A DNA stretch of 34,729 bases from Chloroflexota bacterium. GTDB lineage: Bacteria > Chloroflexota > Anaerolineae > UBA4142. Position 1 is the stretch's first letter, and every line of letters starts with the position of its first letter. The position numbers and the translations under genes are program-made. Location: assembly GCA_023381515.1 (NCBI GenBank), contig JAMCQI010000034.1:1-34729 (forward strand), given 5' to 3'. Below the pieces are notes generated by a model. It was not told the DNA's origin and did not search any database. It saw only the letters and a program-made list of their open reading frames with translations. Below, one piece after another: positions 4,001 to 34,729 of this stretch.

Positions 4001-4124
4001 AGAGCAAGGCGCGGTTTTTGCGCCGCAAGCCTTCGAGCGGGCGGCCGTCTAATTCAAGCTGGGGTGGTCCGAGCAGGAGTATCGCCAAGCGCGGTACAGG
4101 CGCCGCGCCGTTTTGTATGCGCAT
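1011..4124 (-). CDS. BTAD-AAA-TPR transcriptional regulator (SARP/LuxR-like giant)
   Basis: This 1037-aa protein has an N-terminal OmpR-like winged-helix region (about 12-100), a BTAD helical domain (about 105-250), an AAA/STAND-type ATPase module (about 275-500) with Walker A GEPGIGKT at 301-308 and Walker B VVLFLDDLHWAD near 409-420, and a long tetratricopeptide-like tail (about 650-1030). Such proteins bind DNA and switch on neighbouring or secondary-metabolism genes after nucleotide-dependent, ligand-gated oligomerisation. The inducer is unknown. No strong ribosome site precedes the ATG at 4124, so translation may be near-leaderless. A weak promoter (TACAAT, reverse strand of 4177-4182) lies about 55 bases upstream. 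A nine-base GC repeat near 2503-2540 encodes an Ala/Pro-rich linker. The SnoaL-like gene follows and may be a target or operon partner. Confidence 0.9.
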   Translation of the reverse strand: MRIQNGAAPVPRLAILLLGPPQLELDGRPLEGLRRKNRALLYYLAAQSKPCSREHILSLFWTDRDRAAAQQILRTMLHDLRKRLGDALVIENEMLSLTPETDIDARRFEAGLSAHAGDATMLAGTLDLYHGGFLEGFALADTPTFDDWVFAERERYEQLAIRGLTALAQRHEARRDWTAALNAVNRALAFDPLQEDIQRTALRLDYMIGDRPGAIRRYESLCKMLDAEMGVPPMPETRALYDSIITDALASEPMPPPAVNIHPASTRSESLAQELPFIGRAHEMKTMSQAVSAGKLILVDGEPGIGKTRLVREFIAAQPPALVLNGSAHELEVGLPYQPIAEALRGLASLPEWSLHRDQLDLEPIWRSELTRLVPELLTEPSPSTTSDESRMWQALYRFLASLAQRRRVVLFLDDLHWADASTLAWLGYLLRQATPPGLLLVAATRPIEPRSKLATLLQTLHREQRVLRLEMKALEATDLRALAERLEPAHADSLAHWLVRYAEGNPFFVTELVRYAGERRLLDREADASPAAPAAPAPPAVPENIQQLIVARLARLSDGARRVLDAAAIIGREFDAGLVIRVSGLTEDAVLDAFDELHSALLVLGREGGLYAFDHSLTMQVVLQKMTDLRRLALHRRVAEAMEEIHRDHLDQAAGLIARHWVEANVPARVAYSAFRAGQYAAGLAAWAEAIAFYEQALQAETNDTNRTDLFLALGTARFNHGESARASESFMSAVTLAQASHDLARLEEAHLALNTSLIPQSRYREAIELAEELRRAGPPELALCAEICWGTALGLESAHPVQAEAHLRLAEELLAAPRGFETRITRARMIYQLAGVTGQQGKIAEAVAYYWQALALVRENETALDLQRHVLLYNNLAYHLHLLNDPEASEFARTGLQFAREKGTRTHQSYLLSTSGEIALAQNDLDAAERFFSEGLELAEQLTIPERIAGLTANLGLVARQRGDTARARELLTDALARANQIGASHLAVRIRMWLAPLLPPDQAWTYLREAREIAEAGHYARLLDDIAQLERESI

Positions 4125-17378: not shown

Positions 17379-18848
17379 CTATTGCTGCGCGCATTTCACT
17401 TTGGTGTTGTCTTCGATTGATTGGCAAACTAATATGGCTTCCTGGTCTTTCGTAATAGTGACAGTTCCAGGTATTGGCTGCTTATTGGGCACCGTAGGGT
17501 TCAAAGTGTAGACGCGAGCCTCCAGCGGGCTGTAGCAATACTGACCGTCGGCAGCAACCGAAACTTGTCTGGCTCCGGTAAAGTTGACTTGCAGTGAAGC
17601 CCCGATGTAGTTGACAATATATACACCATTCAAACACCTCGCGCGGGCAGGTATCGCAATTTCGCTCGTTGCTGTTATCGGTTTTGTAGTTCGAATGACG
17701 GCTGCGTTTCGCGTGTCGTTGCCCGAATCTGCTCGCTTCCAACCTGAGGGGAGGGATGCTTTAGGGGTAAATTCTGTTCCTTGCGGACTGACGACTCGCA
17801 CTTCGTATAAGTAGCCTTCGGTGTTCGTCACGCCAAACGTGAGAGTGAAGAACCCGCCGCTCGCAATATGGACGCTGGCAGTAATGGGCGTTGACGGGAA
17901 CCAACTTGCTGGCTCGCCGTTTTCTAATGCCAAATCGTTGCTTAGCGAAAGCTGCACTTCGGCAGTGGACAATGGGAGAAGCTGATCTCCCAGAACTCTT
18001 CCGACAAGCTCGCGCTTGATGTTGAAATAGAATCTTTGTTGATCGTCGGAAATCGCACTAGGAGCGGTGAACACTTGCATGGCCTCAATCATATCTGGCT
18101 GGAGTTTATGCCACCTCAGCGCTATGGTCGCACCCGGTCCTGCTGGAACGTTGCCAGCAGGGTTGAGCCATGGAGCGACCCCACTCGCCTTCAGACACGC
18201 TTTAGACGTGAGCGGCTGTTGTGCGGTGATGACAAAGTGGCCCTGCGCGTCTGCGACGCCGCCTTGACCAACGGGAATGGTAGACTCGCATCCATCCGTC
18301 AGCTCAACCTTGGCACCAGGGATGGGTTCTGAACTGCCCTCCTTATAGACGTAGCCTTGGTATTTCCATGGCGGCCGCGTTGGCGTGACGCTTGGCTCTG
18401 GTTTGGAAGTCGCGGTAGGCGTCAGTGGTGACACAGCGGTGGGCGTCCGAGCTTCTTGAACGACTTCAGTCGGTGCCACAGTCCGCGAGCCGGAAGGTGC
18501 TTCGGCATGTCCACTTTGGACAGGTGTCGACACGGTAGGAGATGACGCAGCTTGTTGGCCGAGATACTGTGACAGACTCAAATCCAATGGATTGACCACG
18601 ATCACAAGAACGAGAGAAAGGACAAGCACGGCGGCGACGGCTCCGAAGGCGCCCACAATCGTGCGAACTCTTTTCTTGCGCCGAATCCTCTCGTTTTGCT
18701 TTTCTTCGACCAATCGCCCCAAATCACCTAGATCGGCTTGCGCTTCTCTGGCCTTGTCCAAGATGACTTCAATCTGGTCGTCATCCTCTCCGGCCCGCAA
18801 CAACTGTTCGGCGAATTGATCTACCGGATCGGAGTCCCCTCGCTCCAT
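17379..18848 (-). CDS. Single-span membrane protein with carboxypeptidase-regulatory-like outer domain
   Basis: The 489-aa protein starts with an acidic helical cytosolic part (VDQFAEQLLRAGEDDDQIEV), a basic stop (RIRRKKRVR), one membrane helix at about 63-85, a Pro/Thr/Ser-rich linker, and an extracytoplasmic beta domain of the CarboxypepD-regulatory / Cna-B type (YQGYVYKEGSSEPIPGAKVE). Further beta-rich sequence follows (SVHIASGGFFTLTFGVTN). It is last in the tubulin-like operon. The ATG at 18848 is one base after the kinase stop with GGAGG nine bases upstream; a GTG at 18857 inside the kinase frame is less likely. It probably links an outer domain to the cytosolic kinase or tubulin-like partners; this is inferred from position. 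Confidence 0.8.
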   Translation of the reverse strand: MERGDSDPVDQFAEQLLRAGEDDDQIEVILDKAREAQADLGDLGRLVEEKQNERIRRKKRVRTIVGAFGAVAAVLVLSLVLVIVVNPLDLSLSQYLGQQAASSPTVSTPVQSGHAEAPSGSRTVAPTEVVQEARTPTAVSPLTPTATSKPEPSVTPTRPPWKYQGYVYKEGSSEPIPGAKVELTDGCESTIPVGQGGVADAQGHFVITAQQPLTSKACLKASGVAPWLNPAGNVPAGPGATIALRWHKLQPDMIEAMQVFTAPSAISDDQQRFYFNIKRELVGRVLGDQLLPLSTAEVQLSLSNDLALENGEPASWFPSTPITASVHIASGGFFTLTFGVTNTEGYLYEVRVVSPQGTEFTPKASLPSGWKRADSGNDTRNAAVIRTTKPITATSEIAIPARARCLNGVYIVNYIGASLQVNFTGARQVSVAADGQYCYSPLEARVYTLNPTVPNKQPIPGTVTITKDQEAILVCQSIEDNTKVKCAQQ

Positions 18849-18849
18849 T

Positions 18850-21800
18850 TCATTCACCCTCCCAAGGCTTCTGCTTCTTCAGGTCGTCAAATTCCTTGAA
18901 GCGAACCCTCGCACTCATGCGATCCCCTGTTTTCTTGTGCTTTGTATTTTCCAGTATCGAGTGATCGAACTCGATGATCCTGTCTCTCAACATGGCCGGC
19001 AGTCTCTTGAGCGTTACGTCCTTATGAAATGCCAGATATTCTTCGATCCAACCTTTCGTGTGGGGATCCAGCTCCTTGGCGCTTGTGGCGAGATCTATGA
19101 GAATAGACGGGCTCTGGCCGTGGAGCGCTTCAAAGCGGCTGTCAACAGAAGCGAAATACTCTATATCTCCTCTGAGGGACCTCAGGTTTTCTTCTAGCCT
19201 TGGGGAAACTAGCTGCCTGAACGATTCTGCTTTCTCTTTCGCCTCCGAATAGTGGCCCTTCTGCACCAGGTCTCGGATCTGGGACTCGAGTTGACGATAC
19301 TCCTCGTCATTTCTCTTGGTCTGCCCTGCGTTTGCTTTGTCGATCTGAGTCTTCAGACCCCGCTGCAGCTCCTCCGCAGCCCCCTTCCACCATGGTGCGA
19401 AACTCAAATGGTCTGCCAATTCGACCGCCTGGTTCGTTATGTCCAAAGCAGCATTTGGTTCCTTCTGTGCCCTGTCACGCGCATCGCGATACAGAACCTC
19501 AGCCCGCAAACGGTCGAGTCGCTGTGCTTCACGACTCTCGAGCGCTTCGAGAGTCGGCTCGAGAGTCTTTGTGGCATGCAAGGCGAGCAACGTAGCAAGC
19601 CTGCCGACAGCGATCTCTACAAGCGATCCTTCTTCGACGGTGGGGAGTCCCTCCCATGCCGCTTGGTCTTCGCTACTGGGACGACTCAACCAGCGATCGC
19701 GAAGCACAGCGATGTCTGCGTTTAATCGGTAGAGCTTTGACGCACCGTCTTCTGTGTCATATAGCCCCCGGCTGACGGCGCTTGCAAAGCCATACTTTTC
19801 GTCAGCGCTTACCCAATCTCTGGCTCTCAAGTCCGCTTCGATCAAACCCAGCAAGCAGTCAAACCATGCGATGCGGCGCTCGCGAATTGTTTTGCTTAGA
19901 TTCGCGAAGCTTTTGTGAAGGACAGATTGTTCCGAAAGCAAATCTCGCGGCCAGTCCGCGAGTACCTCATCGCATTCGGATTGCACGGAAACGAGGCGAG
20001 CATTGGCGTTTTCCAGTTCAGACAATTTGCCTAATTCCCAAGTTGAAATGGGAATCTGCAACTTGCTTTCAAGCTCGTGTCTTTTTCTTTCCAGTTGCTC
20101 ATATCGGCTTGACTGGTTCTTGAGGTTATCAGATCTTCGGTCGACTTCCCTGCTCCAATCGGAGACATCGAATTCTTGCGAGACTCTTTCAAAGAAGTCT
20201 TTCGCAAGCTCAAACTGTCCATTGTTGATTGCCAGTTCTGCTTCTCGAAACAGGTCTTCTTTTCGCAGGGAGTCAATTTGGTCAAGCTCTTTCTCGATCT
20301 CACTAGTCAGCGAAGCGAGAGACATTTCAGGACTATCGTACAACTCAAGTTTGACCGTCCTGGCGTTATCCAAGATGGCTCGGGCGTGATGTAGATTTCG
20401 CGACCGCGCGGCCTCGTACTCACCCCGCAGTTCTCTTTGCTTCCGAATGTCGCCTTGCACCCTGTCAATCATCTCGGTGACTTTCGATTTCGAAGCAAGC
20501 AGTGCGCTTTGGGCTGATACGTTTTCTAGCCTCAGCATTGACGGGTAGCGGTCCAGCGTCAGTTCCAAGGACTTGGACATGCACGTGAGATCTTGAGGCA
20601 AACGCAGTTTGTCTACGTTGCCCGCTTGCTTTAGGGCTTCGACATCTTTTTCGAAGAGTCCGACAAGGAGAGATTCCCATTGGGGCAAGAGGCTGCGAAT
20701 GTCGTTATCGGCGACAAAGTATCGCTTCGCCAGATCCAAAATGCCAATCGACTCGAGATTGAATGATCCGGCCCTGGTGTCGAACTCCATCTTAAGTGCT
20801 TGCTTGATGCGCTCGTGTTGCCGCGCTCCCCAGGTACTCTCGCGACGATCTTCCCACTGGCGCAAGTGTTCTAGGGCCAGACACGCCGCTGGTAACACCT
20901 CCGGAAGACCTGGAGACTCAATGATCTGTTGCAGCACTAGACTGAGACGAGCGCGTTCCCGTTCTTTCGTTAGACCTCCTACTAAATCTGCTCGTGCTTG
21001 GCCAGACCAGTACAGGCTTGCCGGCTGCTCCTCCGGAACTCCAACGGACGCCAAACTTAGCCCTCGATTCAACTCGTTCCATGCGTCCGCGAAGTTTTCT
21101 TGCTCCATCAACCCGAGCGCAGTTCGGAGGCATTTGTTAGATTCTTCGGCAGTCCTCGACAACTTGCCCACTTGCTCCATGGCGAAGTATCGTGGGGCAA
21201 GCAAACCAGCCTTCTCAAGCTCGAGTTCGTACGGAATCAACCTCCTGATTCTGTCAATGCGGTCGTAAACCGATTTTGCTTGATTGAACTCATGCTTGCC
21301 GCACAATTCTCTTGCCTGATGGTCTTGGCTGCGCGCTTCAGCTTCGCAGATAATATAGAGCAAGCCCGTCTCTTCCGCATAGAGTTTCGCGAACAAGGTC
21401 ATTGCCGTTGACTCGCGTTCTTCATCGTCATTCGACGCGGGATGGCCTCCCCCGGCGGTGAGAGAAATTCTAGCCGAACCCAAATGACTCATCGTCTCAA
21501 ATAACCTGCCAGCCGACAGAGCGTTCCGCGCATCCTCCAATGCCTGTGAGAAAGCTAGTTGAAGGACTTGGGCGTTGAAAGCCGTTTGCAGCATATCCCA
21601 AAACTGTTTTCGGACCGATTCAAGTTCACCTGTTTCAAGACACTGGATCACTCCGGGCCTTGCGGCCAACGCGTGTTCAGAGTGATCGCCCGCCAAAACG
21701 GGAAGAATGTGTTCTCGGAACAGCATCTCTTCTTCACCCAGCGACTGACCAAATCGCGCCAATAGGCGCCAGCGCTCAATCTCATGGCTGCTACCGTGAG

Positions 21801-22950
21801 TCTCGCCGTGCATTTGGCGAACACGCTCAATCTCAGCGATTGCCTTGCCATAGAATCCGTTCCTGAGGTCACTAATCGCACGCTGACTCAAACCGGAGCT
21901 CAATTCTTCGCGAGCCTTCCGCCCTTGACCAAACAGTTCTTGCGCCGAACCGTATTCATCCGAACTGGGCCTGAAAACTCGAATCACATCGAGGCTGACC
22001 AGCGCCTTTTCTGCTGATGCGAGAGCTTCGAGCGGGCTTTCTTCACGCTTGAGCATACAATTCGCTAGACTTTCCCGACCAAGCCCTAAGAGCACTTGCG
22101 GTGCAGTGTCGATGAGGCTCCGCTCATTTTGGAGGTCGCGGAGCAGATCTCCCGCCTGTGTGTAACCGGGGGTCCCTTTCCGGAGCGCGCGCCTTACGAT
22201 CTGCTGCATACCCCACGTGAATTCCTCCCATGCAGGGTGATCTTCAGGTTTCACGGCATCCCGGTCTGATTCGGAGGGCGGCGGAGTTCCCAGCATAAGC
22301 TCGTACCAGAATGAACCAAACTGGTTGAGATCGTGTCGCCGTCCTGACTCGTCAGAAATCGGAACTACATTCCAGTCGAGAACAATCAATTGCGGTATCC
22401 GGTTTTCGTCCCACAGAAGATCACCCAGTTTGCGGTCTGGTGCGGCTCGTCCAATCCGATGAAGAGTTTGAAGCAGCTCGACGTACTGCACCGCCGCATC
22501 GACGCACAACCGTTCGCGCACGGCGGAGTTTCTCGCGCTTACGTAATCCAACAGCCTCTTGGCCGTCCCCTTTTCCAGCCTGAGGTCGACGAACTCCATA
22601 ACGAGTACTACTGGCTCTCCTTCCGTTCGATCGAGCGAATCAATCCGTGGCACTTGACGAGCGCCGTTGTCCCACAACTGCCTGAGCAAATTATGCTCGC
22701 TGATGAACCTGTTTCTGAGCTGCAGGCTGTCTTCTCGGGCAACCTTGACCGCCCACACCTCGCCTTTTTTGTGAGAGACACTTTCACTAACTGTCACCGC
22801 TCGGAATACCTGGGCCGTGTGACCCCCGCCGATGACGTCACCTAAGAGGTACTTGAATTCGCCGGTATAGGTTTTCACGATTCGCTCGCGAAGGAAACTT
22901 GGCGTCTTGCCCTTGTTCCGCGGTTGTAGGGTTGCATCGCCGTTCATCAT
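18850..22950 (-). CDS. Divergent Ser/Thr protein kinase-like protein with long helical tail
   Basis: The 1366-aa protein begins with a kinase fold: glycine loop IGGGHTAQVFRA at 40-51, Lys69 in VWAVKVA, helix-C Glu85 in ISEHNLL, hinge VVLVMEFVD, catalytic loop APDRKLGDLLW with Asp172 and Lys174, and DWN (192-194) in place of DFG. The usual loop Asn is replaced by Asp/Leu residues, so it may be a weak kinase or a pseudokinase. Residues 300-1366 are almost entirely helical, TPR- or coiled-coil-like, with no membrane helix. The start at 22950 follows AGGAGATGTGAG; the longer frame from 23250 would overlap the upstream gene in another frame. It sits 49 bases after the CAP-VWA-tubulin gene and one base before the last membrane protein. 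A role in phosphorylating or scaffolding the tubulin-like proteins is inferred. Confidence 0.85.
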   Translation of the reverse strand: MMNGDATLQPRNKGKTPSFLRERIVKTYTGEFKYLLGDVIGGGHTAQVFRAVTVSESVSHKKGEVWAVKVAREDSLQLRNRFISEHNLLRQLWDNGARQVPRIDSLDRTEGEPVVLVMEFVDLRLEKGTAKRLLDYVSARNSAVRERLCVDAAVQYVELLQTLHRIGRAAPDRKLGDLLWDENRIPQLIVLDWNVVPISDESGRRHDLNQFGSFWYELMLGTPPPSESDRDAVKPEDHPAWEEFTWGMQQIVRRALRKGTPGYTQAGDLLRDLQNERSLIDTAPQVLLGLGRESLANCMLKREESPLEALASAEKALVSLDVIRVFRPSSDEYGSAQELFGQGRKAREELSSGLSQRAISDLRNGFYGKAIAEIERVRQMHGETHGSSHEIERWRLLARFGQSLGEEEMLFREHILPVLAGDHSEHALAARPGVIQCLETGELESVRKQFWDMLQTAFNAQVLQLAFSQALEDARNALSAGRLFETMSHLGSARISLTAGGGHPASNDDEERESTAMTLFAKLYAEETGLLYIICEAEARSQDHQARELCGKHEFNQAKSVYDRIDRIRRLIPYELELEKAGLLAPRYFAMEQVGKLSRTAEESNKCLRTALGLMEQENFADAWNELNRGLSLASVGVPEEQPASLYWSGQARADLVGGLTKERERARLSLVLQQIIESPGLPEVLPAACLALEHLRQWEDRRESTWGARQHERIKQALKMEFDTRAGSFNLESIGILDLAKRYFVADNDIRSLLPQWESLLVGLFEKDVEALKQAGNVDKLRLPQDLTCMSKSLELTLDRYPSMLRLENVSAQSALLASKSKVTEMIDRVQGDIRKQRELRGEYEAARSRNLHHARAILDNARTVKLELYDSPEMSLASLTSEIEKELDQIDSLRKEDLFREAELAINNGQFELAKDFFERVSQEFDVSDWSREVDRRSDNLKNQSSRYEQLERKRHELESKLQIPISTWELGKLSELENANARLVSVQSECDEVLADWPRDLLSEQSVLHKSFANLSKTIRERRIAWFDCLLGLIEADLRARDWVSADEKYGFASAVSRGLYDTEDGASKLYRLNADIAVLRDRWLSRPSSEDQAAWEGLPTVEEGSLVEIAVGRLATLLALHATKTLEPTLEALESREAQRLDRLRAEVLYRDARDRAQKEPNAALDITNQAVELADHLSFAPWWKGAAEELQRGLKTQIDKANAGQTKRNDEEYRQLESQIRDLVQKGHYSEAKEKAESFRQLVSPRLEENLRSLRGDIEYFASVDSRFEALHGQSPSILIDLATSAKELDPHTKGWIEEYLAFHKDVTLKRLPAMLRDRIIEFDHSILENTKHKKTGDRMSARVRFKEFDDLKKQKPWEGE

Positions 22951-22999
22951 CTCACATCTCCTGACTCGCTCTTTTTGTCCCCAGGATGACTTGATTTGC

Positions 23000-25900
23000 T
23001 CATCTGCTGCCCGGCCTATTGGTGTTTCTGGCGCGTCGCGCCGCGAGCTCATCCATAGCGACCAACCGCAGAAATGCAACGATTTCAATGCCGCCGGGAC
23101 GCTCCTGTTCTTCCCACGCATAGAGGGGCACCGCCTCTCGAGTCGCATCCTCGCGCGCCGAGTCCGGCAATACGAAACGCGCCGCGTCCAGTCTTCCCAG
23201 CCGGTCGGCGAGCGCCACATCGTCATGTTCGAGTTCCATCTCGACGGCATGGCCGAGCTCGTCCAGATTGGATCTGATGTGGGCTGGATCGTTCAACGGA
23301 AGCCCTAAGACAAAAGTTCGCATTGCGACGACGAGCGGCGCCTCGATTTTGGTTATGTCCTCCGGCAAAGCGAGCGCGACATCCACCGACTGGTTTGACA
23401 AATACAGACGATAGCGGTACTTGTTATCGGACTGCGGCAGCATCTCGCGCCGGACAAGTCCACCCAGAACCGCCAACGCAAAAATCCGAGCTCTCGCGTG
23501 ATTTTCCAGCGCCGCTACGAATAACGGATTGGAAATACGCGACGGCATCTCAAGGTCGCGCATCATCCGCTGTTCCAATACAAGAGCATTCTGTTCGGCC
23601 GGAAAAACGTGTGCTGGTTCGCGCCAGCCAATCTGCCCCTGGGCGCCGCTTTCCGAAATCCCAAATGCCCAGCGATACGTGTCGTTCGCTTGCTTCCGAA
23701 GCAGGAATGCCGACACAGGCACAACCTCGGTAATCGAGAGCAATCCGCACGTCAACGGTTCGGTGATCGGAACGACCTCGACCCTCGGTCCCTGAAGCGA
23801 TTCCTCCACTTTGCGACGTAGTGTCTCAGCTTCCGACACATTGGCATTTACGTTCACAAAGTACTTTGTCTGGTATTGATTGGGAATCACGTTAACGGCT
23901 TGCGGCGTTTCAGGCGGCGCAAGCGTCGGCTCAATGGGCGCAAGCGGAACGGCACGCTCGCACATCGCCTTCTCGGTTGCTTGAAGATGATCTGCATTCA
24001 GTAGTTCCCGGCTCAAGATCTCCGCTAGCAGCATGTCCTTTCGGTCCCATAGACCCTTAAGCAGCACTCCGGCAAGCTCTTCCAGATGATCCGCAAGTAC
24101 ACGAGCGTTCGAATTGCCAGGTGACACAAGATTGTCTTCCCATGTCACAAAATTTAGTCGGACTCGACGCTGGCCGTTCTCGTCCGTAACCTGCCAGTAG
24201 AACCGGTCATAATGCTGGTCGACGAGGGGATTCAGATAGTCGTGGTATATCTGGTCGATCAGATCATCCGAAACGAGGTACCGCCGCGATTCGATCTTCG
24301 CCATCTCGGCGCGCTGCATGCGGCGATCTTGCTCGCGTAACCGCAGAATTTCGTAGGCGCCTAGCTGGTTCGGTTTGCCTCCGGCTACGAGGCAAGCCAT
24401 GTCATAGAGTTCGGACCTTAGTTCTCGCGCCCCCGCCAGAAACGCATCGTAAACATCGCAGAGAGTACGGGCTTGGCCTGACTGTTCTTTGATCACTGCC
24501 GATTCAAGCGTTCTCAGTTGTGAGGCAATTCCAGCAAGTATGCCTTCCACTTTCTCCAGCAAGGCCGGCGCGTAGCCGATTTTGCCGCAGCGAGCCTGTT
24601 CGATTGTGCTTCCCTCCCGTCCATTGAGCACTCGCAGCACGGCATCTGCGAGAAAATCATGGAACAGGGTTCGGCGCGCGTGAACGAATGCGTCTGGGTC
24701 CTGTTTGTCGATCGTCACGAGGAACGTCTTTGCGCGAGCGCGTAATTCTTCGAGTTGTCCTCCCTCCCACGCATCGACGAGCGGCCAGATTTCGTTCAAC
24801 GGTGGATTCAGGCTCGCGCTCCAATTGAGCACCTCGTGCGCTTTGTCTTCGAGCGTAAAGCCTCTTGTCTCTTCCATGTTGAACTCCGCGGTGAGTGGCA
24901 AGTCGGTGCCGACATAACGCGGGGACGTGACATATGCACGTATCAGGGCTTGACCAAAGCGCGCTCGAAGCTCGGCAACAATATCGGGCAGCGGCAAACG
25001 GTAAACAAAGTTACCCACGGTGCCGAGGACCGCTTCGCCGCGATTCGTCTGCACGTTCACCGCGTAGGAACGCGTCGTCTCGCGGAATTTCTCCAGTGCG
25101 TAGTCGCGAGATCGGCTGGCGGGGTCAAGAAGCAAAATCAGCACATCCGCGAGCGCAGGGAAAACCCCATATTCTGGACGTGTGCCGGCGAGATACGCCG
25201 CGGTATCGAGCAAATAGACGTTGTCAAACAAACCTACTGTACAGTAGCCATTCAGTACGCTTCCCGGTGCGCTATCCTTGTACTGCATTGGATACGGTCG
25301 ATCTTTGGCGAGCTGAAAGCGACCGATCTCACGCAGCGCGGCGAAGGAATTGATCCTTTGTCGCTCCGGATTCGCGTGGGGAATTGCGCGGAAAGCACCC
25401 TCGCCGACCAGGAATGCTTCGATGGCGACTGAGGCTTTGATGCCGGCAGCCAGGGCCGCATGCCGGACGATGTACGCGATGTCGTTGATCGTTCCGCTGC
25501 CGGTGCCGCCTCCGAGTGAACCGACGATGATGACGTGGGCGCGGTAGTTTTCCTCAATCGGTTCCTTCACTGCGCCGAGATTGTCGCACAATTGTTTGAA
25601 AAGGCCGGTCTCTGGTCGGTCCTGCTGTATTGTTCGGACAAGTGCCGCGCGCCCCATCGGGCGATTGGAATGTGTGCCGCGCGCAATGTCGCGATCCACA
25701 ACGCTAAGGTGTTCACGATAATCCTTTGCCGGGAACCAACTGCGTATTTCCGGTTCCGCGGTCCCGTCTGTCGCTATTTGATCGATAAGCGTGTTCAGGT
25801 CTTCGGTAAGGACGGTTTTTTCCGACGCGTCCAGCTCCACGCCGGCGAATCGTATCGACGTTTGTCTATCCCCGGCTGTTTCAGATTCCGCGGTATCGAG

Positions 25901-28900
25901 CAGGAGCAAGCGCACGTTTTCTGGCATTCGGTTGCCGCCCGCGTCTAGCAAATTCTTCTTTAATTGAGTTAGAACCCACCGTCCCGTGCCGCCCAGACCA
26001 ATGATGAGAGCATTGTCAGGATTCCAGATGATTGGTGGGGCGAATTGGGAGATGAAGCCAGGCCGCGGCGGCGAAAGTGGCGGCGGTGGTGGAAGGGGTG
26101 GCTGGGGGATCACAGTTTTCCTCCGACAAAGCAGCCAACACAGAAACAGCAATGGGATCAACGGTAGGAACCATGGCCATAATTCAACAGCTCCACCAAA
26201 GACTCGCACGTTGCAGGTAAGCCCTGGTGGCAGGTGGTTGCCGGAGGGATCCCAAGGCTGTTGCAGTTCATGCTGCCATATCTTTAGCATCTCGGGGTAC
26301 TGAATATCGTCCGTATCCAAGCCGTTGTATACGATGAGCCCTCTACCATCAAAAGCGTATGCGTGCACAAAGCCTTGCTGGTTGTTCACGTTTCGGGCCT
26401 GGGCGTCGCCGCACCACGCATAGTTCCGAGTCATCATCACATTCGCGTCGCCGATTTCGGTGTCTCGAGTGATCGCGCTGGCGTCGACGTAGCTTGGCGA
26501 ATTCGGATCACGACTCATCATGGGATCGTCACTTACAATTGCAAAGATGCCGCTGTTCGAACCTCGGCCGCCTGGGTTATCAGTCACGAATGGATAGGGT
26601 AACCACGAATAATCTACCGAAAACGAGTTGCCGATGCCATAACCCCAGCTGCCACAGACATCGGAATCATAGATGATTAGTTTGCCTCCATTGTTAACCC
26701 AATTCACCAATGCGACCTTTTGCGAGGCCGAGAGCTGTGCGCCGATATCACAGACCTGTGAGATCACCACCGTATCATAGTTGGCAAGTACGTCGGTCGT
26801 GACCTGTGAAGCATTTACGTCCATAAAACTGAACCCGCGTGGTCGCGGCATGAAATTAGCGGCGTCGAGAATCGCCACGTTCACGCTGCCGCTGACCCCG
26901 ACAGTTGCGCTGATGTTGGCTACGGCCCCCACGATTGGACTAACCGCGGTAGGCGCGACATTCGAGCCGGAGTTGCCAGCAAAGGGCGTTTTGGTCAGCG
27001 CGGTCGAGCCGGTGCCGAGCGGCGCCGCCGCGACCGGCAACGCGCACATTGATGCAGCAAGCGCTTGCCCAACGAAGAACGCGAGCACAAACAGATATAT
27101 GAAGAGCAAGAAACAGGGTAGCCAGCACCAGCGCCGATGTGTCTTGATTTCGTAAAGCCAATCTATGTGACGCCAACGCGATAGCAGAAACCAAAGTAGC
27201 AGCACCAACAGAGGCAGCAACAGCGGCGGCAGCCAGATGTACCAATCGTTGCAGTACGCCCCGCCATCCAAAAGAAGTTGCTTGAGAATGCTGGGCGGCG
27301 CACTGGGGGTGAACGGCGGCAAAGGCGTTGCGGCTGGACCAGGAGGAAGCACGAAAGAAGTTGCTGAGGGCGTTGGACTCGGTCCTGGTGTTATGGTCGA
27401 CGGTGGCGGCGCTACTGTCCCAACAATGAGCGCATAGGGTGTCGGCGGCGACCCGGGAGCGACCTGGCCACCTTCATCCAAGACGGAATTCTCGAGGTAG
27501 CCATTGCAGTCAATTCCCGCTGCGCCGATGTGTCTAACGACTCTTTGACCGGCTGCGCTTATGGGCACACTCAGCTGATAGGACAGGGCCAAAGTCTCGC
27601 TCTTCCCGATGCGTGGCAATTCCCAAACAACCTTGCCTGGACTTGCGAGTTGGCCGCCACTGCTGATGTTGGAGAGCTGTAGGAGACCATCCGGCGCGAA
27701 TTCGTCGGCGATCCGGAACTTGAGCGAGGCAGCATTCAGATCTGCGTTGGTTGCGGACAGAAACAGGTCGCGCAATTGGTCAGTACCTGGATCTGTAAAG
27801 AACCGACGAGTGTCGACACCCATCGCCGATACGTCTGCATCTTTGATCTTTCGCTCGTCGGCGATGTTGAGCGTGTTGGCAACAATGTAAATCGGGTAGA
27901 GAGTTCCAACTTCGCGCGCAGCGTTCTTTGTAGCGGTAGCGGTCACCGGATCATTGTCGTGCAGCAGCAAGAATATTGCTTTGGCACGATCCTTGGGAGT
28001 CTTGTCGAGAATCTGCTTGGCAAGGCGAATTCCTTCCGCGATGTTGGTGTCTCCTTGCGGAACAATGCCGTCCACTGCTTTGAGTGCCAATCCATAGTCT
28101 TGGGTGAGGTCTTGCAAGAGAAAGGCCTGAGGACCTGTCGTTTCCGTCTTGCTGGTCACAATCGCCAGTGTGGACAGCTCCGGTTTGGAACGGTCGCGAT
28201 AAATAGGTTGCTCCAGCTGGGCAAGCAGCTGGTGGGTGAAGTCGCGCGTTTTTGCCCAGTTTGATCCGTTTTGTCCATTGCCAGCGCTTTCAGAAATGTC
28301 AAAGACAAAAATAGCGTCTAGCGGTTGCGTGGGTATCCCTCGGCATTCCAGGATACTTGCCCCGGTCAGCTTGATGGTGACTAGGGCATTTTGGCCCGGC
28401 ACCAGCGTGCTGGGCTGGATGCTTTCAGCGATGGTGGTACTGTCCGGAACTCGTGGCGGAAGCCCGGGCGGAGGGACAGGATATGGCGTAGGAACCGTGA
28501 CCGTCGCGGCAGCCTGCGCTGGGTCGCCGCCTGTCTGCAAGTAGATGCTGTCGGTCGAGGTCAAAACGGCCGCACCATTCCGAAGTTCGACCTTCACAGT
28601 ATGTATGCCCTCGGCGGCCTTCAATTGCCAAGCCTTGGTCTGACCAAATGGCTCCCACGCGCCGAAAGAATCGGTATCATTCTTGAGTCTCATTTGCTGT
28701 GCCCATCCAGCGCCGTGGAGGCTAAGCGATACATCGGGCGAAGTTGTCAATATCGCGTCACTGTTGATGATTAGTGGGTAGACATCTTGGCGTTCGCCAA
28801 ACAGCTGTGCCCAAAAGTGCGTACATGACCCACTCCCACAGCCATTGACACTGCCTGGATCGTAGGCATATCCGACCCCGGTCTCACGAGGACTCGTACT

Positions 28901-29326
28901 GAGGATGTTCGCCCGGTGACCAGGGCTATTCATCCACGAGCGAACCACTGCCTCTGGCGTGGCTTGCCCTTCGGCAATATTCTCTGCGATGAAAAGCCAA
29001 GCGTAGCCTGCGGCGGTTGCGCGAATCCCTGGATTGGAATTGGTTTGCGGATTGATGTGATTGAAGAAACCTATCGATGCCATTGCACGTGCTTGCGATT
29101 CTGCTGCCGAGTCGAGTTTAAGATCCTCCTTCAATGGCAGCAGACCCGCCTGCACTCGTTCACGATTGGTGAGCTCGACAACTTGCTGCCCGAATGTCGG
29201 TCCAGCCGGAATCGAATCCGACCGTGCAAGAGTCGATTGAGGGACGAACTGAAATGCTACCAAGAAAAACACGAAACATGAGGCGAACAAGAACTCGATG
29301 AAACAATGACGCCGAAAGCCCCTCAT
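23000..29326 (-). CDS. CAP-VWA-membrane-amidotransferase-like-tubulin fusion protein
   Basis: One intact 2108-aa frame holds, in order: a signal segment (about 9-34); a CAP/SCP domain (about 49-185: LTNRERVQAGLLPL, FNHINP, ENIAEG, SWMNSPGHRANIL, HFWAQLFG); a beta linker; a VWA domain with MIDAS-like DISES (343-347) and QGDTNIAEG; a Pro/Thr/Ser linker; membrane helices at about 696-716 and 735-761; an amidotransferase/ThuA-like Rossmann domain (about 813-1035: DTVVISQVCDIG, WVNNGGKLIIYDSD); a third helix (1049-1067); a poly-Pro linker; and a tubulin-like domain from about 1103 with GLGGTG (1110-1115), LLLLDTAESE, RPMGRAAL and GGGTGSG (1272-1278). Positive charges flank the helices so that CAP, VWA and amidotransferase-like parts are outside and the tubulin part is inside. 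The start at 29326 follows GGAGG. The function is unknown; the design suggests an outside-to-cytoskeleton link. Confidence 0.9.
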   Translation of the reverse strand: MRGFRRHCFIEFLFASCFVFFLVAFQFVPQSTLARSDSIPAGPTFGQQVVELTNRERVQAGLLPLKEDLKLDSAAESQARAMASIGFFNHINPQTNSNPGIRATAAGYAWLFIAENIAEGQATPEAVVRSWMNSPGHRANILSTSPRETGVGYAYDPGSVNGCGSGSCTHFWAQLFGERQDVYPLIINSDAILTTSPDVSLSLHGAGWAQQMRLKNDTDSFGAWEPFGQTKAWQLKAAEGIHTVKVELRNGAAVLTSTDSIYLQTGGDPAQAAATVTVPTPYPVPPPGLPPRVPDSTTIAESIQPSTLVPGQNALVTIKLTGASILECRGIPTQPLDAIFVFDISESAGNGQNGSNWAKTRDFTHQLLAQLEQPIYRDRSKPELSTLAIVTSKTETTGPQAFLLQDLTQDYGLALKAVDGIVPQGDTNIAEGIRLAKQILDKTPKDRAKAIFLLLHDNDPVTATATKNAAREVGTLYPIYIVANTLNIADERKIKDADVSAMGVDTRRFFTDPGTDQLRDLFLSATNADLNAASLKFRIADEFAPDGLLQLSNISSGGQLASPGKVVWELPRIGKSETLALSYQLSVPISAAGQRVVRHIGAAGIDCNGYLENSVLDEGGQVAPGSPPTPYALIVGTVAPPPSTITPGPSPTPSATSFVLPPGPAATPLPPFTPSAPPSILKQLLLDGGAYCNDWYIWLPPLLLPLLVLLLWFLLSRWRHIDWLYEIKTHRRWCWLPCFLLFIYLFVLAFFVGQALAASMCALPVAAAPLGTGSTALTKTPFAGNSGSNVAPTAVSPIVGAVANISATVGVSGSVNVAILDAANFMPRPRGFSFMDVNASQVTTDVLANYDTVVISQVCDIGAQLSASQKVALVNWVNNGGKLIIYDSDVCGSWGYGIGNSFSVDYSWLPYPFVTDNPGGRGSNSGIFAIVSDDPMMSRDPNSPSYVDASAITRDTEIGDANVMMTRNYAWCGDAQARNVNNQQGFVHAYAFDGRGLIVYNGLDTDDIQYPEMLKIWQHELQQPWDPSGNHLPPGLTCNVRVFGGAVELWPWFLPLIPLLFLCWLLCRRKTVIPQPPLPPPPPLSPPRPGFISQFAPPIIWNPDNALIIGLGGTGRWVLTQLKKNLLDAGGNRMPENVRLLLLDTAESETAGDRQTSIRFAGVELDASEKTVLTEDLNTLIDQIATDGTAEPEIRSWFPAKDYREHLSVVDRDIARGTHSNRPMGRAALVRTIQQDRPETGLFKQLCDNLGAVKEPIEENYRAHVIIVGSLGGGTGSGTINDIAYIVRHAALAAGIKASVAIEAFLVGEGAFRAIPHANPERQRINSFAALREIGRFQLAKDRPYPMQYKDSAPGSVLNGYCTVGLFDNVYLLDTAAYLAGTRPEYGVFPALADVLILLLDPASRSRDYALEKFRETTRSYAVNVQTNRGEAVLGTVGNFVYRLPLPDIVAELRARFGQALIRAYVTSPRYVGTDLPLTAEFNMEETRGFTLEDKAHEVLNWSASLNPPLNEIWPLVDAWEGGQLEELRARAKTFLVTIDKQDPDAFVHARRTLFHDFLADAVLRVLNGREGSTIEQARCGKIGYAPALLEKVEGILAGIASQLRTLESAVIKEQSGQARTLCDVYDAFLAGARELRSELYDMACLVAGGKPNQLGAYEILRLREQDRRMQRAEMAKIESRRYLVSDDLIDQIYHDYLNPLVDQHYDRFYWQVTDENGQRRVRLNFVTWEDNLVSPGNSNARVLADHLEELAGVLLKGLWDRKDMLLAEILSRELLNADHLQATEKAMCERAVPLAPIEPTLAPPETPQAVNVIPNQYQTKYFVNVNANVSEAETLRRKVEESLQGPRVEVVPITEPLTCGLLSITEVVPVSAFLLRKQANDTYRWAFGISESGAQGQIGWREPAHVFPAEQNALVLEQRMMRDLEMPSRISNPLFVAALENHARARIFALAVLGGLVRREMLPQSDNKYRYRLYLSNQSVDVALALPEDITKIEAPLVVAMRTFVLGLPLNDPAHIRSNLDELGHAVEMELEHDDVALADRLGRLDAARFVLPDSAREDATREAVPLYAWEEQERPGGIEIVAFLRLVAMDELAARRARNTNRPGSR

Positions 29327-29540
29327 CGTAGCCCTCCATGGTATCATGGCATCTATGAGTTACCTGCAACCCGGCCGGCCAATTCGATCACTCGGCAGGA
29401 GCGGGCATCTTGTCCGATCTTCTGCCCCCAATGTATTGCTGAGCTTCAGTAACACAACGAGAAGAAGTGACTTTCCTCTTCTACAGCACGGACGAAGGAA
29501 CGACGGTCCACGGAGCCTTGCCCTGAACTAGAACACTGAT

Positions 29541-29765: not shown

Positions 29766-32700
29766 CTATTGCACTTCATTCCGGATCATCTCGCGCAGAC
29801 TGGTCGTCTCGTCATTGAGCGCAAGATACAGAGCCGTGTAGAGATCGCGCTTCTGGCGATCGGGGTGCCGAAGGCGATCTACTTCTCCTTCGACTTCAGT
29901 GCCTGTCTCAGAAACGTAACGATCGACTGTCTGACCTCCTACGAGCCTTTCTCGCTGTGCGGCAATGTACTGTGCCTCGGCAATCAGCACCTTGATCCGA
30001 TTTTGTTTTTCAACCGACTTGGACTCAAGAGCCATCTTCAGCTCCGGTGTCAGCTCTGGCCCCTTGTCAAAGATTTCTTGGGCTTGCTTGCGACGAACAT
30101 CCTGCACTGCCCGCCTCACGCGATCAAAGTCAATGGGGCGAGTTATTCCCTCCCGCATATCTTTCTCGACGTAGTTGAATGTGCCCAACGCTGCGAGCAG
30201 GCTCACTTCTCCGCTCTTGGTCAAGCGAATTTCCTGAGCGGGACGCTTCGGTTGGGTCGGATCTTTCGTTGTCTCTTCGGGCAGAACTAACTGAAGATAG
30301 TTCTTGGTCACCCCACCCTCTTGCTCCGCTCCAGTGGTAATGAGCTCGAATGCGTAACAATTGGCGAACAGTCGGAATCGATCGATGTTCTCCAGCTGAA
30401 TGACCACCTTGTCTTCGAACATCCGGGCTTTGTGCTCCAATTCGGTTTGCGCACGATCTTCATATTTGACAGAGTTCACCTCAGCCGGGTAGAGGTGGAG
30501 AATGTCACGCCCCCGTCCGGCTACCGGCCCGGTACCGCGCCACAACATATAGTCTCCCTCCGCTTCCCAGAAGGATTCCATACTCTGGACCGGGATGAGA
30601 TCAATATTGTAAATGAGCGTCAGTTTGTACCGATCTGCCGACTGCACAAGCTGGGCGAACCGATCGTCTGCCACTTGAGAGCGATCAGCCACGTCGCGCT
30701 TGAGCTGGAAGAGGTAATCTTGATCGTCGGCCGACTCGCCGAACGCGACGCGCAAATAGTTGGAAGGAATGGGGCTGGCGGGGGCACGCTTGCCGAACTC
30801 GAGCAAGATGCCGCTGTTGTCAAAGAGCTTCTCGCCCAGTCCGTCTTGGCCGCTTGAGGCGAACTTGCTCTTTAGATATTTGAGTACCGATTCCCGTTTC
30901 CATGCTTCAGCGAAAGCCTCGCGGGCGCGGTCGAGAATCAGATCTACGTTGTGTTTACGGACGTTGCCTGTCAGCGCACTGGATTTGCTTTCGCCATCCT
31001 TGTGTACGACCACGTTCAAGCCGATCGAGAACTCGGTCCGCGCACCCGTCTGCGTTGCCGTCACTTGCCACGATAGATCGCGCAGCATTTCGTTGACCTT
31101 ATCGCCTCGCTGAACGGCGTACTCATGGAACAGACGCTGTTCATAGCCGGGATCGAAGTACGGTGATTGAGGATTGACGCTGGGCACCGCTTGGCGTACC
31201 GGGATTTTCTCTTCATTGAGCCGGTTGACCAGCACCTGTTTGTTCCCCGTTACCAGATCGGCATAGAGACTGTTTTGGCCGACGCCCAATGCGTTAGACC
31301 AAATCATGGCTTTGGTATGCGCGTCCTGCACGTATTCCCTCAATGCCGTGATGGTCGTGACTGCCATGAGCTCGATTGTCTCTAGGCGCAGGGTATCGAT
31401 GAGCCGCTGCTCCGAGTTGAGGTAGTTTTCTTGAGCTCGAGTTGCCGCCCCCGGAAAACGGCTGGACGCTTGTTTCTCCATCTCCGCAAGCAGTTGTTGG
31501 GCTCCACGCATCGCGTCACGCCGCGCCCCTTGGCTTTCACGCATTTCACGTGCCTGCCTGAGCAAATCCAGAAAGAGGTCCAACTCTTTCGCCACGCCGT
31601 CGAGGAAGTCAATTAGGAAGCCAAGTTTGCCTCCGCGCGACTGCCGATAGTCCTGAGTGCTGCTGCCATTGAGGATGTTCGCGGCGTAAAGGTTAAGCAG
31701 CACGCGGAAACGATCGAGATGAATCCTGTGATATTCCTCTATCGCCTTGCGATACTCACCCCCGTCACGCCGACCATCAGGTTTCTCCGCACCAAGGTGT
31801 TGTGCCTTGTAGTTCTTCACACCGTCGATGATCCGACGCAGCCCGTCCTGCGGCTTTTCGCGCGACACCTTGTTGCTCGGCGGAACGATCTCTAGCAGTT
31901 GCTGATTGATTGTGGCTTCCACCTTCTGCGCGACGCCGGCTGACGCGGCGCCCGAAGGCGTATAGGCGAGCGACCAAGTCTTTAGATCGCGGCCCGCTAG
32001 CTCGGAGACGATATCGTCTTTGTTTTGGGGGCTGTAGCGCGCAGTAACGCCAACGATATCCTGCACCAACGCAGTATTCTCGGCTCCCCGCGTGGCGTCC
32101 TGGTTGTCCGTAACCGACTGCACGCCCAAGAACGCACGCGCCTCCGCATTGCCGGGCTTGCCGTCGCCCGCTTCGATGTTGCGATTGGGCGCGAGGCGAA
32201 TTGGTACTCCGTCTTTGTCCTTGTCTTTCGGATCACAGCCCAAGAAAGTATCCAGCGCGTCGAGCGCAAGTTGATGCGAGAAAGCTTCGATGATGTAGTA
32301 GAGAGGTAGAACGAAACTGAACGTCCCGAGCGCACTGTATGTCGCCGTGACCTCGCGATTCCCTTGATCGGAAACAACCTTGTTGAGGTTGATCTGGTGT
32401 TGTGCAAAAGCATGTCCGCCTTCCTCGTCCAATGCCGCTACGATCGTATCTGCAATAGTTGGAGCAACGCCGAGGTCGAGCGGAACCGCGCTAAGGTCGT
32501 TCTTGGCGCGTCGCCCGTCAATGTAGTAGAGGAAATCGAATAGCTTGCTTTTGATGCGTCCCTGCCACACGTCACGCCCGTCGGCCACCACGTTCGTGCC
32601 ATGATAGTACATCGGGTATCCGTTCTCCCAATCGAATTTCACCATGAACCGCTTGTTTTCTCGCATCGCCGCGTAGGCTCGCGCACGCATGTCACGCGTT

Positions 32701-33356
32701 ACGCCACCCGGGATAGTTTGGAAGGCCTCCGGCATTGCCAGGAATCCGCGCAATGCCACGCCAAGCGTCATCTTGATGTCGGCGATTTGTCTCAGTAGGT
32801 AGGCAATGTCCACGAACATTCCGGCACCAGTGCCGCCCGCCACGGAACTGACCAGCATCACGTTGATTGTCTTGGTGCCGGCTGCCTTTTGAACCCGGGT
32901 CATGGATTGCCAGAGCATCTGGTAAATCTTGGAAAGACCTTCACCCTTCTGCACGTCGCTGAAGATTGCCAGTCGCCCGAATTGGCGCAGCATGCCCGCG
33001 CCACGTTCTAGAAAGAACAGGTTCTGCGGAAGTGTCTCCAGGTAGTAGCCTGCCTGCAGCCAAGACCCGACGTGAGGATGCTTGCCTTTCGCGACGTCTT
33101 GGACATAGGTGTAGACATTCCCGCCAATCCAAACGTACTCTCTGTCGCCGAGTTTGACTGCCGATGCAGCGCCAGACGACGTTTGCACTGCGGCAATGCC
33201 GGCCTGCACATCGCTCTCGCGTTCGGTGTCAAAGGCAAGTAACTGCACCTCTTCAGGCATCACGCCGCCGTGTGTCGCAAGTAGGTCCTGCTTGACCTGT
33301 GTTAGTACCTTGACCCCGGTCCCGCCGAGGCCAACGATCAATGCCGGTGTGGCCAT
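29766..33356 (-). CDS. Tubulin_2-type (FtsZ-like) GTPase-fold protein
   Basis: The 1196-aa soluble protein starts directly with a tubulin/FtsZ-like nucleotide fold: GLGGTG (9-14, the T1 loop), LLAFDTERES (39-48, matching the FtsZ NTD strand), a GMLRQFGRLAIF segment (121-132) typical of the tubulin-like Pfam family Tubulin_2, and the signature AGGTGAG (173-179) corresponding to GGGTGTG. The C-terminal two thirds are long and helical, far longer than FtsZ. I could not place the catalytic T7-loop acidic residues. No membrane segment is seen. The start at 33356 has GGAGG eight bases upstream. It lies 60 bases after the edge membrane protein and before the CAP-VWA-tubulin fusion; two paralogous tubulin-like domains suggest co-polymerisation like an alpha/beta pair (inference). 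Confidence 0.88.
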   Translation of the reverse strand: MATPALIVGLGGTGVKVLTQVKQDLLATHGGVMPEEVQLLAFDTERESDVQAGIAAVQTSSGAASAVKLGDREYVWIGGNVYTYVQDVAKGKHPHVGSWLQAGYYLETLPQNLFFLERGAGMLRQFGRLAIFSDVQKGEGLSKIYQMLWQSMTRVQKAAGTKTINVMLVSSVAGGTGAGMFVDIAYLLRQIADIKMTLGVALRGFLAMPEAFQTIPGGVTRDMRARAYAAMRENKRFMVKFDWENGYPMYYHGTNVVADGRDVWQGRIKSKLFDFLYYIDGRRAKNDLSAVPLDLGVAPTIADTIVAALDEEGGHAFAQHQINLNKVVSDQGNREVTATYSALGTFSFVLPLYYIIEAFSHQLALDALDTFLGCDPKDKDKDGVPIRLAPNRNIEAGDGKPGNAEARAFLGVQSVTDNQDATRGAENTALVQDIVGVTARYSPQNKDDIVSELAGRDLKTWSLAYTPSGAASAGVAQKVEATINQQLLEIVPPSNKVSREKPQDGLRRIIDGVKNYKAQHLGAEKPDGRRDGGEYRKAIEEYHRIHLDRFRVLLNLYAANILNGSSTQDYRQSRGGKLGFLIDFLDGVAKELDLFLDLLRQAREMRESQGARRDAMRGAQQLLAEMEKQASSRFPGAATRAQENYLNSEQRLIDTLRLETIELMAVTTITALREYVQDAHTKAMIWSNALGVGQNSLYADLVTGNKQVLVNRLNEEKIPVRQAVPSVNPQSPYFDPGYEQRLFHEYAVQRGDKVNEMLRDLSWQVTATQTGARTEFSIGLNVVVHKDGESKSSALTGNVRKHNVDLILDRAREAFAEAWKRESVLKYLKSKFASSGQDGLGEKLFDNSGILLEFGKRAPASPIPSNYLRVAFGESADDQDYLFQLKRDVADRSQVADDRFAQLVQSADRYKLTLIYNIDLIPVQSMESFWEAEGDYMLWRGTGPVAGRGRDILHLYPAEVNSVKYEDRAQTELEHKARMFEDKVVIQLENIDRFRLFANCYAFELITTGAEQEGGVTKNYLQLVLPEETTKDPTQPKRPAQEIRLTKSGEVSLLAALGTFNYVEKDMREGITRPIDFDRVRRAVQDVRRKQAQEIFDKGPELTPELKMALESKSVEKQNRIKVLIAEAQYIAAQRERLVGGQTVDRYVSETGTEVEGEVDRLRHPDRQKRDLYTALYLALNDETTSLREMIRNEVQ

Positions 33357-33416: not shown

Positions 33417-34729
33417 TCAGTACTGCATGTACTTGATATAGTACTTGTTGCCAAGATCGCAACGTGAGCCGTAGGACCTGTCCTTGAAGATTTGAGATCC
33501 CCCTCTCGACATTTCGGCTTCGATATCCACTGCTTCGCGCTTTGGAAGCTGCACGCGTTTGACCGTCAGTTTCTTGATCCCCGCGGCTGCGGGGAGATCC
33601 CGGCTGGTGTAAACGACGCGGTTTACCTTAAGGGATCGGAGTGCCTTCGTTCCGTTTGGGAGGTTGGTGCCTATCCCATCTTGAATGTAGATGGAGCCGC
33701 TAAGCATGTAACCGTGGTGGTCTCCAATGAAGCGTGCGGTTCGTTGAGCAAAAAGGGCACCGAGCGCCAAAACAACCAACCCGTCGACAACGTAAGGCAA
33801 CCAATTGTCATCTCGCTCGACCACAAAGTGTGAAGTCGACGCTGCCACAGAACATCCTTCTCCTAAAGAAAGGGTGTTCGGGGTGATGTCGATCAACCAC
33901 TTTCCCCGGGTGTCCAACCCGTTTCCCTCGAGATGCAACTCGCCCTTTTGGTTCGCGGGTCGCAGTTTGATGTCCTTGGGATCGACCGCTTTACCATTCG
34001 GATCGGTGACTTTGACTCCGACCAGATCCGTTGGCGAGATACCCGCGGCAGCCGCATCGAACAACTGCGCCTTTTCGTTCCGTAATTCGAAATCCAACTG
34101 CAGAGGTGAATATATCGGAAACCAAAAGTAGATAGGCTGCTGCTCTTCAAGCTTGCCTGTGGTCGAAGCGGCGCTGAGCGCTGTTGACGCTTTCACGCTG
34201 GCAGCCCTGATTGCATCCGCCACGTCAAAGTTCGTGAAATGGCTTCCCTGGGCGTCGACTGACGAGGCGCTCAAATCAGCCGAGTACAATCCGGCGCTGG
34301 CCGGTGTCCATTGTCCGCGGTAAATCCCGTTGTCCATGCGGGCCAGCGGCACTGTTTCTGTCACGCCGCTGCTCCTGAACGTGAGCGCAGCGCTTAACGC
34401 ATAGCGTGAATCCGGTATTTCGGTGATCGGATTACGTTCATCGTCCACAAATCGCACACCAACGTTGTTTGGGCTGCTCTGACACAACTGGGAAGGGAGC
34501 GCATCGATCGTGAACGTGACTGGCTTGACTGACCATGTTGCAGCATTAAAATCGAAAATCGTAATTGTCTTGCCGGAAGGTTCGTTGCTGGTTCCGGTTA
34601 GGTGCAAGACGCGTTTGGCATCTGACTGGGCGAGGTACACGCCGCTGAATACACCCGGCTGAGCCTCGGATAGGCTGATTCGCTCCTCCGTTCCAGAATC
34701 GCTCTTGATTGACGCCTGCACGGTCAATC
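33417..34729 (-). CDS. Membrane protein with extracytoplasmic beta domains (5' end outside window)
   Basis: About 437 codons remain and the frame runs off the window edge, so the true N-terminus is missing. The visible part is beta-rich with Ig-like repeats typical of surface VWA-associated regions (QPGVFSGVYLAQSD, MDNGIYRGQWTPASAGLYSA, TDPNGKAVDP), then one membrane helix (about residues 309-327 of the visible part: LPYVVDGLVVLALGALFAQ), then a cytosolic domain of about 105 residues with several beta-like stretches (SLKVNRVVYTSRDLP, KKLTVKRVQLP) ending KYYIKYMQY. It precedes the tubulin-like gene by 60 bases and is the first operon member seen. A signal peptide and a VWA domain may lie upstream; this is a guess. 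The cytosolic tail could contact the tubulin-like proteins. Confidence 0.75.
   Translation of the reverse strand, partial: LTVQASIKSDSGTEERISLSEAQPGVFSGVYLAQSDAKRVLHLTGTSNEPSGKTITIFDFNAATWSVKPVTFTIDALPSQLCQSSPNNVGVRFVDDERNPITEIPDSRYALSAALTFRSSGVTETVPLARMDNGIYRGQWTPASAGLYSADLSASSVDAQGSHFTNFDVADAIRAASVKASTALSAASTTGKLEEQQPIYFWFPIYSPLQLDFELRNEKAQLFDAAAAGISPTDLVGVKVTDPNGKAVDPKDIKLRPANQKGELHLEGNGLDTRGKWLIDITPNTLSLGEGCSVAASTSHFVVERDDNWLPYVVDGLVVLALGALFAQRTARFIGDHHGYMLSGSIYIQDGIGTNLPNGTKALRSLKVNRVVYTSRDLPAAAGIKKLTVKRVQLPKREAVDIEAEMSRGGSQIFKDRSYGSRCDLGNKYYIKYMQY

Follow-up and report, generated by a model that had tools for sequence, protein, structure and literature searches.

A membrane-anchored FtsZl1 paralogue fused to extracytoplasmic CAP and VWA domains in Chloroflexota

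Can a single bacterial polypeptide connect the cell surface with a tubulin-like protein in the cytoplasm, and what would such a connection serve? The question is raised by a gene on the minus strand of a 34,729-nucleotide stretch from a Chloroflexota bacterium (assembly GCA_023381515.1, contig JAMCQI010000034.1; hereafter the window), which runs over 23000-29347 when counted from its first ATG and encodes 2115 residues without a stop in frame. An initial annotation, made from the letters alone, suggested that the product would be an outside-to-cytoskeleton transducer or a surface-anchored filament base, its author knowing of no characterised CAP-tubulin fusion. We find this to be right on the object and right in part on its meaning: the protein belongs to the FtsZl1 family as a membrane-anchored paralogue and is encoded in an operon of known kind, and its relatives suggest a little-studied system linking the cell surface to a cytoplasmic tubulin-type protein. 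FtsZl1 operons with vWA proteins and protein kinases were described by Makarova and Koonin in 2010 (PMC2875224; this and the other papers are cited for the portions of their text available), and the expected vWA protein is here fused into the same chain.

The fusion protein and its path across the membrane

A second in-frame ATG at 29326 would give a product of 2108 residues, and because GGAGGG sits five bases upstream of it, it is, judging from sequence, the better candidate start; residue numbers refer throughout to the 2115-residue version counted from the ATG at 29347. The uninterrupted 2108-residue frame first proposed is real, its strand, then unstated, being minus. A frameshift or an erroneous joining of two genes, which had been named as a possible refutation, is rejected because relatives with the same domain order sit on many separate contigs. 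The closest relative (P0003) is 62% identical over 87% of the fusion length, and another (P0007) is 38% identical over 99%.

The CAP domain and the VWA domain with its MIDAS-like (metal ion-dependent adhesion site) residues are both borne out, as Pfam matches to CAP (residues 58-181, E 6.9e-16) and VWA_2 (346-461, E 7.8e-8) lie above the curated cut-offs and the DxSxS motif reads DISES at 350-354. Both the PF00188 match and the CAP fold of the superfamily are present, the predicted fold having a root-mean-square deviation of 1.1 over 122 residues to 4ifa, a Bacillus SCP-domain protein. A full His/Glu tetrad is a motif of this superfamily; in the window copy it is incomplete, Gln replacing the first His, which is retained in all 12 other CAP-bearing rows aligned, and a bound metal site in this CAP domain is therefore doubtful. 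The YkwD-type CAP proteins (TIGR02909), like 4ifa, share the fold with the fusion protein, but its CAP part scores 85.3 bits against a YkwD cut-off of 171 and has Gln at that one conserved His. The amidotransferase-like (GATase-like) domain of the initial annotation is indeed a conserved unit, 65 columns being invariant in nine aligned copies of residues 820-1035, but its GATase-like fold is tentative: ThuA matches in one of the nine members, at E 0.0014 and 19.3 bits against a cut-off of 33.4, and the domain profile found no match better than E 0.25 among PDB sequences. In the N-terminal structure model (predicted local distance difference test 74, predicted template-modelling score 0.38) the fold-search matches listed cover the CAP and VWA parts, and the GATase-like part barely.

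Hydropathy indicates an N-terminal signal or anchor (residues 17-35) followed by three helices (704-722, 741-759, 1052-1070). Two more hydropathic windows, at 1297 and 1865, fall inside the well-folded tubulin model and are not counted as membrane helices. In the window protein both the loop between transmembrane helices (TM) 1 and 2 and the flank after TM3 are positive, and the same holds for 28 and 24, respectively, of the 29 proteins scorable out of 38, those dropped having a tubulin domain before residue 700 or a weakly matched one. The three helices and the charge-based topology proposed at the outset are thus upheld, and the pattern predicts the CAP, VWA and 820-1035 domains to be outside and the tubulin domain inside.

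The cytosolic part matches Pfam Tubulin_2 (PF13809) at residues 1114-1385 (E 1.3e-30, 107.3 bits against a cut-off of 27), and its predicted structure has the tubulin/FtsZ fold, so that the proposed Tubulin_2-type domain stands on both counts. After the nucleotide domain, model residues 400-720 are mainly helical, with two strands at 617-635. The fold is common to FtsZ (TIGR00065), CetZ and the fusion protein, which unlike them has a large helical insert, a fusion to membrane segments and no match to the NCBIfam FtsZ model at E 0.1; a profile of the cytosolic part gave 16 weak matches among PDB sequences (best E 0.025), none of them to FtsZ or tubulin. The T1-loop glycines, D1289, E1340 and other residues adjacent to the site are conserved in fused and unfused groups alike. 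The tentative positions of T7 and of a putative guanine-contact Asp (A1400-D1401) were read by eye from FtsZ motifs; at 1401, Asp is present in 69 of the 70 membrane-type rows but in only 36 of the 74 unfused ones.

Relatives and the paired soluble paralogue

Directly upstream of the fusion gene, the window encodes a soluble FtsZl1 paralogue (Table 1). The same arrangement is found in 8 of 13 assessable loci (the window, L001, L002, L004, L005, L007, L010 and L015), the soluble gene of L004 being in three broken frames; in L054 the fusion is preceded by the C-terminal piece of an FtsZl1-type gene that the contig end truncates. The count sets aside L006, L008 and L009, with 1.5 kb or less of upstream sequence (the cut 459-residue frame there in L006 has no match); it also leaves out L046, for its gap of N, and L003 and L059, which duplicate L049 and L009.

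A protein search returned 17 relatives apart from the window's own record (P0002), and a scan of genome contigs gave 15 loci: 13 from Chloroflexi/Chloroflexota or a subgroup (including an Aquidulcis locus assigned by a separate check), one from Aminicenantes and one from Elulimicrobium (Elulimicrobiota). A membrane-type copy is present in 13 of the 15 loci, L012 and L014 holding the soluble copy only. Two additional searches contributed soluble and simpler fused forms, and the pooled set comprises 146 tubulin domains, or 144 once two near-identical ones are dropped. In a tree of 93 tubulin domains, one branch separates 55 soluble rows from 38 of membrane type, of which 32 are fused and 6 are C-terminal pieces.

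The two groups also differ in the T4 loop, where 71 of the 74 unfused domains but 10 of the 70 membrane-type ones retain the threonine, a contrast that mirrors few evolutionary events and in which rows are not independent counts. In its place stand Phe (28 rows), Met (20), Leu (9) or, in three rows, something else; some of these rows also have a deletion. The membrane-type rows that keep it are the window, P0064, L054 and seven L013-type relatives; of the 47 rows that have CAP, a GATase-like part or CxxCH, only the window has it, and the sister P0003 has Leu. A 3513-residue frame in L046 with two Tubulin_2 domains was considered as a natural soluble-membrane fusion and dropped, since it crosses a stretch of assembly N (X in the protein) between its halves, which are still counted in the tree, the pooled set and the T4 tallies as one unfused and one fused row.

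The extracellular parts, scored with profiles built for this analysis, vary. Long N-terminal extensions occur in 65 pooled rows and CAP in 27 of these, the window included, so CAP is optional in the fusions. The combinations are CAP, VWA and CxxCH (16 rows), VWA and CxxCH (12), VWA alone (12), CAP, VWA and GATase-like (9), VWA and GATase-like (6), none recognised (6) and four further ones occurring once each. The CxxCH motif lies in the extracytoplasmic domain of L001, L002, L004-L010, L011:2826-5291, L046 and L049, and in that of P0012, P0013, P0019, P0077-P0084 and others, and those scanned with Pfam also have a PD40 propeller; the motif may be a c-type haem site, which suggests that the surface modules are swappable and perhaps redox-sensing. 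In P0026, P0027 and L011:5275-8850 a VWA domain is inserted within the tubulin-like domain, presumably on the cytosolic side, and is preceded in P0026 by a weak CarboxypepD_reg-like piece. Simpler VWA-TM-Tubulin_2 fusions of about 1350 residues (one of 1217) are seen in P0065-P0076 and L013, two of them bearing the source names Aminicenantes and Desulfobacterales.

Fusions of this kind seem to be rare. Among 350 evenly drawn Chloroflexota genomes Tubulin_2 matches occur in 41, above the cut-off in 38, and frames longer than 1500 residues with above-cut-off matches in two only, G001, on which the draw was centred, and G275, the one with the N gap; these figures undercount the fusions, as a weaker one in G333 (L048, 1569 residues) surfaced only on reading its locus. 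FtsZ proper is present in 14 of 16 genomes with Tubulin_2. None of the 71 records from a plasmid search reached 80% of the query, and the ten matches listed cover at most 7% of it, all in the CAP region.

Proposed role and alternatives

The published FtsZl1 proteins likewise have Tubulin_2 followed by a helical region and a vWA protein in the operon, along with a protein kinase (PMC2875224); in the window the kinase-like gene is the candidate counterpart of the latter. The fusion differs in uniting vWA and membrane-spanning parts with a second FtsZl1 in one chain, in its added CAP domain and in the C-terminal tubulin subdomain visible in its model, to which the available text of the 2010 paper reports no detectable similarity. 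That paper left filament formation open; a paper on archaeal membrane proteins cites the vWA-FtsZl1 link (PMC5898192), and a 2023 phylogeny leaves Tubulin_2 proteins aside as divergent (PMC9871819). Our literature search, over titles and the beginnings of abstracts and with most subscription journals outside it, found no description of the trans-membrane fusion, of its CAP domain or of the soluble/membrane clade split, and no paper on an FtsZ with CAP and Willebrand domains. Within the reach of this search the CAP-tubulin fusion itself looks undescribed, but the family and the kind of operon are published.

The continuity of the chain, its domains, the topology signals, the predicted fold, the operon order and the separate clades are the observations from which a role can be proposed. 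As the most likely role, we give about even chances to the fusion protein being a surface-controlled membrane anchor or nucleator for soluble FtsZl1. It would be the membrane-anchored partner in a two-tubulin system, in which CAP, VWA and the second extracytoplasmic domain would bind cell wall or surface ligands outside, the three helices would connect these parts with a complete tubulin-type domain on the cytosolic side, and this domain would pair with the soluble FtsZl1 encoded just upstream. The latter is likely a polymer dependent on guanosine triphosphate, for which the membrane copy could be anchor, nucleator or end cap, and switching might come from MIDAS-metal ligand binding outside and from the kinase-like protein inside. 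What we infer is that the two tubulins pair, that polymers form, that nucleotide is used, that ligands are sensed and which way the signal runs.

A reviewer of the 2010 paper objected that FtsZl1, being cytoplasmic, is separated by the membrane from secreted vWA or outer-membrane proteins and will form no complex with them (PMC2875224), a point that the fusion addresses in that one membrane-spanning chain holds both vWA and FtsZl1. The reviewer also asked how a protein without T6-H7 elements fits known filaments (PMC2875224); the model would address this as well, both tubulin subdomains being predicted, separated by the large helical insert. With its two genes, the pair offers a small system for asking whether a surface ligand drives a bacterial tubulin-type polymer.

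Several points weigh against an anchor or nucleator. The gene order differs in 4 of the 13 loci: L011 has the soluble gene, a VWA part and a tubulin part as three genes, one frame lies between the soluble gene and the fusion in L048 and three in L049, and in L013 the fusion lies about 10.5 kb downstream of the end of the soluble gene, on the same contig. The branch separating the two groups has support of 90/83, below the starred level, and has at its base two long rows whose joins are possibly false. No FtsZ-like T7 motif (NxDxxD) was seen by eye in the fusion protein, and the profile alignment to FtsZ spans 73 columns only, with a probability of 5.8% and E 0.0066. The idea of an inactive membrane partner may not fit the window copy, since GGGTGSG is kept there and the threonine is present in 7 of 12 close relatives of L013 (P0070-P0076). 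In addition, no report of biochemistry on a family member was seen among the papers that the literature searches listed.

A wider and clearly more tentative version of the anchor proposal is that these proteins are single-chain transmembrane tubulin receptors, whose interchangeable surface modules (CAP, VWA, GATase-like, or CxxCH plus beta-propeller) would control a cytosolic tubulin pair. The membrane paralogue would be a non-exchanging cap or nucleator and the soluble one a dynamic GTPase, which would make the pair a bacterial counterpart of asymmetric tubulin pairs, with the receptor built in.

A rather unlikely alternative, though one with a published precedent, is that the fusion is the trans-membrane signalling scaffold of a GAP1-N2-like conflict or stress system, its tubulin parts forming switchable signalling assemblies and no cytoskeleton. 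Kaur et al. (2020, PMC7159879) described neighbourhoods in firmicutes where two tubulin genes accompany one for a multi-TM protein bearing an extracellular vWA, and suggested regulated assemblies; the kinase-like gene in the operon and a metallophosphoesterase in L002 agree with such a scheme. These GTPase-centric systems differ in having their parts as separate genes, and the term CAP domain has 0 occurrences in the available text of that paper. Against the scheme, no GAP1-type GTPase was found among the 14 window frames scanned, although the upstream part of the operon lies beyond the contig end. PADLOC gave no match to the fusion protein and two weak ones (PD-T4-6, mad6) to the kinase-like protein.

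We regard it as improbable that the protein is a surface adhesin or wall-anchoring protein, its cytosolic domain being a static, nucleotide-independent anchor. The T4 threonine is missing in 60 of 70 membrane-type domains, and Foldseek matches of the VWA region include the pilus adhesins 7w6b and 6m3y among many other VWA proteins, yet the T1-loop glycines, D1289 and E1340 are conserved in both groups and the window T4 loop is canonical. A further match of the CAP part is to NCBIfam DalA, a peptidoglycan-binding lipoprotein associated with the divisome, with 39 bits where the cut-off is 200; as the available text of the DalA paper does not use the word CAP, the link is this weak score alone. 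A role in remodelling membranes or forming vesicles, which Makarova and Koonin suggested for FtsZl1, is very improbable, since the family and its vWA and kinase context are the same but no membrane-bending part was recognised and the 2010 proposal was based on gene context (PMC2875224).

Neighbouring genes at the window locus

Table 1. Features of the fusion gene and its neighbours in the window
Feature	Position	Strand	Remarks
CAP-VWA-TM-TM-GATase-like-TM-tubulin gene	23000..29326	-	2108 aa (2115 aa from ATG at 29347)
Signal peptide or N-terminal anchor	29243..29299	-	aa 17-35; hydropathy
CAP/SCP domain	28790..29200	-	aa 50-186
VWA domain with MIDAS DISES	27740..28330	-	aa 340-536
Transmembrane helix 1, out to in	27182..27238	-	aa 704-722; hydropathy, charges
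Transmembrane helix 2, in to out	27071..27127	-	aa 741-759; hydropathy, charges
Conserved extracytoplasmic domain, GATase/ThuA-like at best	26243..26890	-	aa 820-1035; alignment, weak ThuA match
Transmembrane helix 3, out to in	26123..26194	-	~aa 1052-1075; hydropathy 1052-1070, model helix 1063-1074
Tubulin/FtsZ-type nucleotide domain (Tubulin_2)	24926..26026	-	~aa 1108-1474; Pfam, structure model
T4 loop GGGTGSG	25493..25513	-	aa 1279-1285; canonical here, degenerate in most membrane-type paralogues
Mostly helical insert between tubulin subdomains	23891..24853	-	~aa 1499-1819; model secondary structure, alignment range spans insert
C-terminal tubulin/FtsZ-type subdomain	23525..23872	-	~aa 1826-1941; model, VIA-align ranges ending at model residues 776-845
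Soluble FtsZl1 paralogue	29766..33356	-	1196 aa; Pfam Tubulin_2 E 1.5e-43; T4 loop AGGTGAG; no hydropathic helix
5'-truncated membrane protein	33417..34727	-	related to gene upstream of soluble FtsZl1 in L001, L002, L004
Diverged protein-kinase-like domain and long helical region	18850..22953	-	start re-set from 23250; motifs common to relatives
Membrane protein, one hydropathic helix (70-88), CarboxypepD_reg-like part	17379..18857	-	Pfam below cut-off

The kinase-like gene has diverged from the canonical motifs DFG and HRDxKxxN, which here read DWN and DRKxxD. Among 11 aligned sequences DWN is present in all, DRKxxD in ten (L012 has DMKLEN) and A[V/I/A]K in ten, L005 being without that stretch. 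Pfam found no kinase match in the window protein (18850-22953); over seven relatives scanned, Pkinase passes the cut-off in the L012 counterpart, falls short of it in L002 and L010, and gives no match in the other four. Upstream of the soluble gene, relatives of the truncated membrane protein have a filamin-type repeat above the cut-off in L002 only, of those scanned, and the L002 phosphoesterase mentioned above (L002:3402-4307) is calcineurin-like and lies two genes upstream of soluble FtsZl1.

Elsewhere in the window, 9058-10314 and 14425-16917 are transposase-like genes (DDE_Tnp_1 above the cut-off; IS66/MULE-like below it), and 1011-4124 encodes a BTAD-AAA_16-TPR protein, probably a transcriptional activator.

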